A stretch of DNA of 64,000 bases, taken from the NCBI GenBank assembly GCA_016213735.1, contig JACQZU010000020.1:62001-126000 (forward strand), given 5' to 3'. Below are positions 55,206-59,359 of this stretch, in pieces (positions within the stretch are counted from its first letter, which is position 1; each line of letters begins with the position of its first letter). A program made the position numbers and the translations under genes. The notes below the pieces were generated by a model. It searched no databases, was not told the origin of the DNA, and saw only the letters and a list, made by a program, of their open reading frames with translations. Source of the DNA: Acidobacteriota bacterium. GTDB lineage: Bacteria > Acidobacteriota > Holophagae > Holophagales > Holophagaceae.

Positions 55206-56585
55206 TCAGATCCCACCGAGGGCGATGTCGTCCAGGAGCATGCTCAGCCCTCCACTTCCTCCGTACCAGCGGAGGTCGTCGCCGATGGCCATGATCCGCG
55301 TGAGGAAATCCCGCAGGTTGCCGGCGAAGGTCAACCGGTCCACGGGTTCCGCGAGGCTCCCACCTCGGATCCGGAGGCCGGAGGCGCCCACGCTGAGGTC
55401 CCCGCTGACGGGGTCCACGGTATGAAGCCCCATGATTTCCGTCAGCAGGACTCCGTCCCCCGCATCCCGGAAAAGCTCCTCCACTTTGGAACGGCCCGCC
55501 AGGGGGTGGAGGTTGTGGGTGGCGGCCCTGGGATTGCTGCCTGGGCCCCGGGAGGCACTCGCGGTGGGCTCGCTTCCCATCTCGGCGGCACTGCGAAGGG
55601 TGTGGAGATGGGAGGCGAGGACACCTTCCTCGATGAGTAGGTTCCGGCGTGTCGGAACGCCTTCCCCGTCCCAGGGCTCGCTGGCCAGGCCGTGGGGAAG
55701 ACGCCCGTCGTCCACAAGGGTCAGAAGCGGGGACCCGATGCGCTGTCCGAGTTTTCCCGCGAACAGGCTGCGGCCCCGCAGGATCGATTCGCCCTCCAGC
55801 ATTCCGGCGATGATCCCAAGAAGGTCCACGGTCACTTCGGGGTGGAGCACCACCCTGTAGCGCCCGGCTGGAAGGCGGGATGGCTTCAGCTTTCGCTCCG
55901 CCTTGAGCGTCGCCTCTCGCCCGATGGCCGCGAGGGAGAAGGCCCCCGGGTGGCGCCCCATCTCCCAGTGCCATCCCGCCTGCCGGTCCCCCTCCCGCTC
56001 CACCGCAAGCTCGATGCTCCCGGAGCAGGAACTTCCGAGGTCCGCCACGCGGACCCCCTTGTCCGTCAGGAGCAGGCTGGCCCCGATCCCGTCGCTCCAA
56101 GTGCTCTCCCGGACCGCCGCCACCCTGCCCGAGGCCCTGCGGGCTTCGGCTTCCAATTCCTGGGCACGCTGGATCCGATCCGAGGGCCCCAGGGTTTCCA
56201 CCCGGGGATCGTAGCGGGGGGGGAGGTCGTCCACACCGGCCGGACCCGCTTGGCTCACCCAAGGATCCTCGTCTCCGAGCGCGCTCAATTCCCAGGCCTG
56301 CCGGAACAGCGTTTCGAAGCTCGGCCGGGAGAGGTCGGTGGTGGTGGCAATCCCGGTCTGGATTCCTGACTTCCCTCGCCGGAGGACCCTTGCCCCCAAG
56401 CCGCCGCGCTTGCTCGTGCTCAGGTCCTGGAGCACCCCGTCCTGGACCTTGGCCCGGGAAGACCGGGAGACCGTGACGAAGGCCTCGGCGCCGCAAGCCC
56501 CCGCGCGCATCGCCGAAGCGATGCCCTCTCTCAAGCGTTCCTCCAGGTCCTCGGGAACGAGCTTGCGGAACACCGGCTCCGTCAA
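55206..56585 (-). CDS. pmbA: TldE/PmbA-family metalloprotease subunit
   Basis: PmbA (TldE) is the non-catalytic partner that with TldD forms a heterodimeric protease processing small peptides such as microcin B17 and CcdA. The 459-aa product has SKRGGLGARVLRRGKSGIQT, PSRLPAGRYRVVLHPEV, and GGSLAEPVDRLTFAGNL, with no HExxxH, as expected for TldE. Its ATG overlaps the macrodomain gene stop (ATGA). TldD is encoded two genes upstream on the same strand, fused to CoaE. Confidence 0.92.
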   Translation of the reverse strand: MTEPVFRKLVPEDLEERLREGIASAMRAGACGAEAFVTVSRSSRAKVQDGVLQDLSTSKRGGLGARVLRRGKSGIQTGIATTTDLSRPSFETLFRQAWELSALGDEDPWVSQAGPAGVDDLPPRYDPRVETLGPSDRIQRAQELEAEARRASGRVAAVRESTWSDGIGASLLLTDKGVRVADLGSSCSGSIELAVEREGDRQAGWHWEMGRHPGAFSLAAIGREATLKAERKLKPSRLPAGRYRVVLHPEVTVDLLGIIAGMLEGESILRGRSLFAGKLGQRIGSPLLTLVDDGRLPHGLASEPWDGEGVPTRRNLLIEEGVLASHLHTLRSAAEMGSEPTASASRGPGSNPRAATHNLHPLAGRSKVEELFRDAGDGVLLTEIMGLHTVDPVSGDLSVGASGLRIRGGSLAEPVDRLTFAGNLRDFLTRIMAIGDDLRWYGGSGGLSMLLDDIALGGI

Positions 56586-57280: not shown

Positions 57281-59359
57281 TCAGAGGAGGGTCGGGAGGG
57301 GGGTGGCCGTCCCTCCCACGACCAGGGCCGGGCAGAGGATCGTGGGGAGGGCGTCGCTCACGGGGACACCCTGGCCGTCCTTCCCGCAGGTGCCGATGTC
57401 GAAGTGCTCGAGGTCCGATCCGATCTGCTGAAGGTCCTTCAGCACCTCGGGCCCGCAGCCGCTAAGGGTCGCGTTCTTCACGGGATGGTGGACCTTCCCG
57501 TCTTCGATCCAATAGCCCTCGGTCACCTGGAACACGAAATTGCCCGTGACCGTGTCCACCTGCCCTCCGCCCATCCGCTTCACCAGGAGTCCCTCCTTGA
57601 GACCCTGGAGCATGGCCTCCGGGTCGGCCGTCCCCGGCGCCAGGAAGGTGTTCCTCATCCGCGGGATGGGCAGGTGCCGGTAGCTTTCCCTCCGCCCGTT
57701 CCCGGTGGGCTGCACCCCCATCCTCCGGGCCGTTTTCCTGGACTGGAGGAAATTCCGGAGGATTCCATTCTCGATCAGCACGACCCGCGTGGTCGGGGCC
57801 CCCTCGTCGTCCATGGCGGCGCTGCCCCGTTGGTGGGGCAGGGTTCCGTCGTCGATGATGGTCACCCCCTCCGCCGCGACCCGCTGTCCGAGCATCCCCG
57901 CGAAGGCGCTCATCCCGGCGAGCGCCAGGTCGGCCTCCAGGCCGTGGCCGCAGGCCTCGTGGATGAGCGTCCCGCCCGCGCTGGAATGGAGGAGAACCGG
58001 GAAGGTGCCCGAGGGGGCCGGCCGGGACTCCAAGCCCAGGACGGCGAGGCGGGCGGCCTCCCGGGCGGTGCGGGCCACGGCTGCGTCTTCGAAGAGTTCG
58101 AAGCCCCGGGCCTCCCCGAGCGGCTGGTAGCCGGACTGGAGCTGATCCCCTTCCCCGGCGGTGACGTTCACCCGCAGCACGCCCTGGATCCGCCGGTCCC
58201 CCGTGAGGGTGGTGCGGGCGGGACCGAGAGAAACCTCCACGGAGGCGATCCAGACCTCCTGGGTGCTGTCCCCGTATCCCACCGCCACCTGGCGCAGGGC
58301 ACCGGGCCGCAAGGATTCCGCGTGTTCCCGGGCCAACGACTCGGCCCGTTTCACGAGTTCCACTTTTCGCTGGAGAGGGACCTCCCGGGGGTCCTGGAGC
58401 ACGGGGACGGGGGTCGGGTGAACACGCTCCACGAGATCAGGGACTTCCCGGGGCTCCCCTGTTCCGGGGGCGGCGAGGAGCCGGGCCGCCTCCTCGAGAT
58501 CCTCGAACGAAGGGGCGATCAGGTCCGCGAAGCGGGTGGTGTCTCCGTCCACGAGGCGCAGGCTCACTCCGAGAGATTCGCTGCTCAGGAGGTCCTCCAT
58601 CCGCCCGTCGTCAAGGCCCAGGGAGCACAGGGTGCGCCGTTCGCCGAACAGTTCGGCGAAATCCCCCCCCCGGGAGAGGAGGATTTCCAGGATCCGCCGA
58701 AGCTGGCCGGAATCGAAGGGGTCGGTCATGGGAGCCTTGAGCGCGCGGCTCCGCCGGCCCTGCCAGTCTGCCAGCAGGGTCCCTTCAGCCTCCTCCAGGG
58801 CTTCCATGAGACTCCGCCCGTCGTTCAGGAACACCCTGTCCGCATGAAGCGCCTTCTCAGCGCTGGTGCTCTGGGCCCTCAGGCGGGCGGAGGCCTCGGC
58901 GGGGGCCAGCCCGTCGCGGTCCATCAAACGCCTCAGGCGCAAGGGTTCGGGAGCCTCCACGACCCAGAAGGCGTCGAAGTGGTGGGCCTTTCCCCGTTCC
59001 ATCCAAAGGGCCGCCTCCAGGACCACCCCTCGGGTCCCTTCCGGAAGGGATCTGACCCGGTCCGCGAGGGCGGCCTCGATCCGGGGGTGGAGGATGGCCT
59101 CGAGGCATCGGCGGGCCTCAGGATCCTCGAAGATCCTCCGCCCCAGGGCGGCCCGGTCCAGCTCGCCGCCCTGAAGGATTCCTGGGCCGAAATGGTCGAC
59201 CAGGAGGTCCAGTGTTTCGGAGGGGGGGCGCACGATCTCCCGGGCCACCTGGTCGGCGTCCACCACCACCCAGCCGCGTCCCGCCAGCCAGGCGGCGAGG
59301 TGGCTCTTGCCGGTGGCGATTCCGCCGCTCAGGCCCAGGACCGGAAAGGGAGGCAACAT
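57281..59359 (-). CDS. coaE-tldD: dephospho-CoA kinase fused to TldD metalloprotease
   Basis: One uninterrupted 692-aa frame encodes two enzymes. Residues 1 to about 208 are CoaE, the last step of CoA synthesis: P-loop [28 protein letters not shown] and LHPRIEAAL. From Met 211 (ATG at 58727-58729) the protein is TldD, with zinc motif [25 protein letters not shown] context and [16 protein letters not shown]. No stop codon separates them, so CoaE can only be made joined to TldD. Free TldD could also arise from the internal ATG (weak AAGG upstream). Each part is full length for its family. Confidence 0.85.

Follow-up and report, generated by a model that had tools for sequence, protein, structure and literature searches.

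Dephospho-CoA kinase (CoaE) has been described as one part of larger polypeptides. In mycobacteria it forms the N-terminal portion of a two-domain protein, CoaE–UPF0157 (GrpB; PRK03333/NF002879), for which the consulted portion of the source describes no internal start (PMC2765170). In mammals, according to the same portion of that source, CoA synthase (PPAT–DPCK) joins the activity, as its C-terminal part, to the enzyme one step earlier in the pathway (PMC2765170). The metalloprotease subunit TldD, by comparison, is in E. coli a separate protein without CoaE that acts with a partner, TldE (5NJ5), its metal being held by an HExxxH motif and a cysteine (PMC5810440). Finally, a ribosome profiling census in Salmonella lists in-frame internal initiation events that yield N-terminal proteoform pairs, that is, two products from one frame (PMC11005335).

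The locus described here, a coaE–tldD fusion from the Holophagaceae, resembles each of these systems in part. CoaE is again N-terminal in a two-domain bacterial protein, but its partner is TldD rather than UPF0157; unlike mammalian CoA synthase, the fusion neither joins consecutive enzymes of a pathway nor places CoaE at the C-terminus. The HExxxH plus Cys ligand set and a nearby tldE are shared with E. coli. As in Salmonella, one frame may give two products, but here the two starts would be those of two formerly separate genes, and the case is built on their conservation among genera, not on ribosome profiling. The first-pass annotation knew of no described CoaE–TldD fusion, and in the literature searched we likewise found none, nor any paper pairing dephospho-CoA kinase with TldD or Geothrix with TldD; an overview of common fusions among metabolic genes mentions neither CoaE nor TldD in its main text.

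Within the window, namely the whole 64,000-nucleotide stretch analyzed, the gene occupies 57281-59359 on the minus strand, a single frame of 692 codons with an ATG start and zero internal stops. The first-pass annotation had correctly reported this 692-aa frame, leaving its strand unstated, as well as its two complete motifs and Met211. The CoaE part (residues 1-199; 58763..59359, minus strand) contains a CoaE domain at residues 7-182 (PF01121, E 6.6e-46, 156.7 bits against a cut-off of 27) and also exceeds the TIGR00152 cut-off (123.6 bits against 65.55). Its P-loop, GGIATGKS (residues 12-19; nt 59303-59326, minus strand), fits the pattern GxxxxGK[ST], and G12, G17 and K18 are invariant in 53 distinct fusions. 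A linker, codons 200-210 (58730..58762, minus strand), leads to the TldD part (residues 211-692; 57281..58729, minus strand), which comprises three TldD/PmbA domains at 235-293, 323-441 and 450-683, with PF01523, PF19290 and PF19289 each above cut-off. Its metal ligands, HEACGH (residues 467-472; nt 57944-57961, minus strand) and, as the third ligand, Cys658 within GTCGK, are those of the published HExxxH plus Cys scheme (PMC5810440) and occur in all 53 fusions. With 301.7 bits against the 513 of NF008006, the NCBIfam equivalog for E. coli-type TldD, the TldD part is a TldD-family member that lies outside that narrow equivalog. Searches of the window's genome found no second CoaE and no further TldD other than the TldE-type partner. 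Since the fusion is the sole CoaE of this genome, it is expected to possess dephospho-CoA kinase activity. Both halves are under purifying selection, with ratios of nonsynonymous to synonymous codon differences of 1.08 for the CoaE half and 0.63 for the TldD half. An AlphaFold2 model of the fusion built from 33 sequences reached pLDDT 56 and pTM 0.41, too low for use.

The next gene in the operon encodes a macro domain (PF01661; 56582..57157, minus strand) and is followed by tldE (pmbA; 55206..56585, minus strand), the partner subunit, which is PmbA-type and lacks HExxxH. In relatives, tldE adjoins the fusion in 25 of the 27 loci examined, and the operons carry 0, 1 or 2 macro-domain copies, which in many Holophagaceae (e.g. 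loci L106, L107 and L109) sit between tldD and tldE. Upstream of the fusion lies accA on the opposite strand. An Rfam search of the locus returned no match, and no sigma-70-like promoter was found there.

The first-pass annotation proposed that the fusion be sought in relatives, where separate genes at the same locus would speak against it. The same uninterrupted, full-length frame is present in 68 of 77 Holophagaceae genomes, spanning 10 genera, and within the family the objection has no hold. Of the remaining genomes, three are reduced (genus g2), some have the locus fragmented or at a contig edge, and others gave no match. Among the 53 distinct fusions sequence varies most in the linker, and the distance between G181 and F215 is 34 residues in every one, with no length variation. 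Our search for fusions covered the Acidobacteriota, and in a sample of 396 genomes of this phylum no uninterrupted CoaE–TldD fusion was seen outside the Holophagaceae. Long CoaE frames found elsewhere in the phylum (L091-L097, L099 and L100), mostly in GC-rich genomes, proved to be spurious upstream open frames and not fusions. The two sister families have a stand-alone CoaE and encode TldD in a gene of its own, kilobases from coaE or elsewhere in the genome. The 1.2-Mb genomes of genus g2 (L089 and L090) encode a separate, very divergent CoaE, a very long branch in the CoaE tree, and no TldD or TldE; their fusion has possibly lost its TldD half. One contig (L066), in a genome titled Proteobacteria, carries a Holophagaceae-type fusion, and this assembly is probably mislabelled or contaminated.

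The likely source of the fusion is visible in other families, where coaE and tldD are adjacent but separate genes. In seven other families (f48, f74, f65, f51, f54, f13 and f41) coaE is followed closely and on the same strand by tldD, in most cases with tldE next; several of the junctions overlap, in ATGA and TAATG arrangements. This coaE–tldD–tldE neighbourhood (L214-L225), in which coaE stop and tldD start often overlap, is, as far as we searched, not discussed in the literature. In two f48 genomes coaE and tldD share one reading frame, and the coaE stop precedes the tldD ATG by exactly four codons, beside a GGAG ribosome-binding site, the junctions reading TGA GGA GCA AGC ATG (L214) and TAA GGA GAC AGG ATG (L215). 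The fusions have Trp TGG, one base from TGA, at that same position, codon -4 from Met211, in 51 of 53 cases. Judging from these present-day f48 sequences, codon 207 (58739-58741, minus strand; CTC in the window) probably held the ancestral coaE stop, a TGA. In a TldD tree the fused TldDs group with the operon TldDs with support 100/100, apart from those of their own class-mates. The TldDs of the sister families (L119-L128) form a branch clearly distinct from that of the fused and operon proteins (L214-L226), which suggests that one of the two branches was replaced or transferred. These comparisons make loss of a stop codon in a coaE–tldD–tldE operon the most likely origin of the fusion.

The internal ATG, Met211 (58727..58729, minus strand), marks the place of the stand-alone tldD start and lines up with the region in which separate TldD proteins begin. 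It is kept in 52 of 53 fusions, close to columns in which between 7 and 12 residues occur. Where codon 208 encodes Arg, 36 of 42 fusions use AGA, compared with at most 7.5% AGA at 53 other Arg columns. This codon has the greatest rare-codon excess of all columns of the gene; ranks two to four belong to codons 197, 195 and 213, all at the junction. In most relatives TGG AGA at codons 207-208 produces GGAG at -11 to -8 from the internal ATG, and -11 falls within the range, -9 to -12, where GGAG peaks among 510 genes with ATG starts from two Geothrix genomes. The motif survives the AGA and AGG (Arg) and AGT (Ser) variants of codon 208; in one copy (L098) Trp-Arg has become Arg-Ser (AGG AGC) with the bases still reading AGGAG, and genus g6 has AAGGA in place of GGAG. 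Predicted anti-Shine-Dalgarno pairing at Met211 averages -6.4 kcal/mol, compared with -2.8 kcal/mol for 545 other in-frame ATGs. By mean pairing energy the position nevertheless ranks only 49th of 673 columns, and since GGAG-like stretches are common elsewhere in these GC-rich genes, it is the conservation of rare codons, not strength, that carries the case. Opening the internal site costs only slightly less energy than in randomized synonymous sequences (8.3 against 9.5 kcal/mol). In genus g9, every copy read has lost GGAG and two species lack the internal ATG as well (one with GGC, one with GTG), a joint loss of the kind expected of a disused start site. These statistics come from related sequences, with the gene's remaining columns in those genomes as the main control; together they show selection at the nucleotide level on an internal Shine-Dalgarno sequence and ATG across most of the family.

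A further conserved element precedes the internal start. Codons 195-199 (58763..58777, minus strand) read CTG CTG GCA GAC TGG in the window and CTTCTGKCANACTGG in most relatives, where the element spans -48 to -34 from the internal ATG (for example about 6577-6591 in L051). At two third positions it is independent of the amino acids, codon 195 keeping a third base T whatever the residue (CTT, ATT, GTT) and codon 197 a third base A (GCA, TCA), and in genus g9 it has disappeared along with the internal start. The pattern at codons 195-197 may in part reflect avoidance of CTCC, a sequence able to pair with GGAG; with CTC at codon 195 the opening energy worsens by an average of only 0.2 kcal/mol. 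A candidate RNA hairpin upstream of the internal site, CCUUCUGG-CANA-CUGGAAGG, found no support in covariation, T195 staying T opposite C. As for an internal promoter (extended -10, TGnCANACT), the whole motif is not over-represented genome-wide; across 370 upstream regions extended -10 boxes are only marginally enriched and TTGAC-N16..20-TANNNT is enriched 9-fold, and a promoter at the junction is unproven.

The window's own junction reads CTC AAG GCT CCC ATG, with Leu-Lys in place of Trp207-Arg208, so that the ATG is present and GGAG absent. What is left of the tldD Shine-Dalgarno sequence is a weak remnant, AAGG (58735..58738, minus strand), and predicted pairing in this genome is correspondingly weak at -2.8 kcal/mol. 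Given this weak ribosome-binding site, internal initiation is least certain in the window's species: production of two proteins there is slightly the less probable outcome, and the cell may make little or no free TldD. Thus the first-pass annotation's suggestion of internal initiation at Met211 gains comparative support for most of the family but meets a weak site in the very species for which it was made.

The reading we favor, with a probability of about 0.78, is that stop loss in an operon created a dual-product gene that encodes both a CoaE–TldD fusion and free TldD. A coaE–tldD–tldE operon would have lost its coaE stop in the ancestor of the Holophagaceae when the stop at codon -4 became Trp207, joining complete CoaE to complete TldD through about ten codons. 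Because the frame contains no stop, translation from the coaE start must yield the fusion, and ribosomes starting there would make a bifunctional CoaE–TldD, the sole CoaE of the cell. In most of the family selection still keeps the old ribosome-binding site and ATG of tldD, which now lie within the frame, so that the same message would also give free TldD (about 482 aa) for pairing with TldE. That both products are made is inferred from the conservation described above. In principle fusion and free TldD could each pair with TldE; in E. coli TldD/E the N-terminal domain places its helices on the outside of the shell-forming sheet (PMC5810440), and by analogy CoaE could sit outside the shell.

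Several other accounts bear on the same observations. The fused protein might be the only product made and relevant, beneficial through shared regulation, CoaE folding or tethering to the TldD/E shell, with the internal signals unused. The fusion has indeed been kept through ten genera, it persists in genus g9 without the internal site, the species of the window has only a weak internal site, and M. tuberculosis CoaE needs its C-terminal partner domain for folding according to the consulted part of that source (PMC2765170). However, a protein-only account does not predict the retention of AGA, GGAG and ATG at points where the encoded residues vary, and we consider it unlikely. Rare codons might instead slow the ribosome at the domain boundary and so aid CoaE folding with no start signal involved, as the clustering there of the four strongest rare-codon columns (195, 197, 208 and 213) could suggest; yet what is conserved is the base and not rarity (T at 195, A at 197, GGAG with Arg or Ser), and Met211 is nearly invariant beside variable residues, which makes this account quite improbable.

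Cleavage of the linker, releasing free CoaE and TldD, would fit the linker's variable sequence. We judge it highly improbable: no cleavage motif was seen in the linker, whose length is fixed, TldD/E digests unfolded peptides from the N-terminus (PMC5810440), and an internal start accounts for free TldD without any cleavage. Last, an error of sequencing or assembly that removed a stop or shifted the frame is refuted, to the point of negligible probability, by the uninterrupted frame in 68 genomes, among them the isolates Geothrix fermentans DSM 14018 and G. rubra.

Under the favored dual-product reading, the reason for linking CoaE to TldD could be co-expression, use of TldD as a folding partner for CoaE, or coupling of CoA and proteolysis; the first-pass annotation had put forward this coupling too, and also localization of CoaE, both of them hypothetical. 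A more far-reaching proposal, which we regard as tentative and on balance doubtful, is that one gene sets the ratio of TldD tethered to the sole CoaE to free TldD, both acting with TldE, and that a physical and functional link would thereby join the CoA pathway to TldD/E proteolysis in the Holophagaceae and, through the operon of separate coaE, tldD and tldE genes, in other Acidobacteriota. The junction is an unusually clear record of gene fusion by stop loss in which the second start is still under selection, and a single annotated name could mask one of the two enzymes. It also offers an exact synonymous change, AGA to CGC, that would be expected to remove one product and spare the other. 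The cellular role of TldD/E beyond peptide maturation is poorly known, and the coaE–tldD–tldE operon, together with a fusion found throughout a family, provides a concrete and testable genetic link to CoA metabolism.
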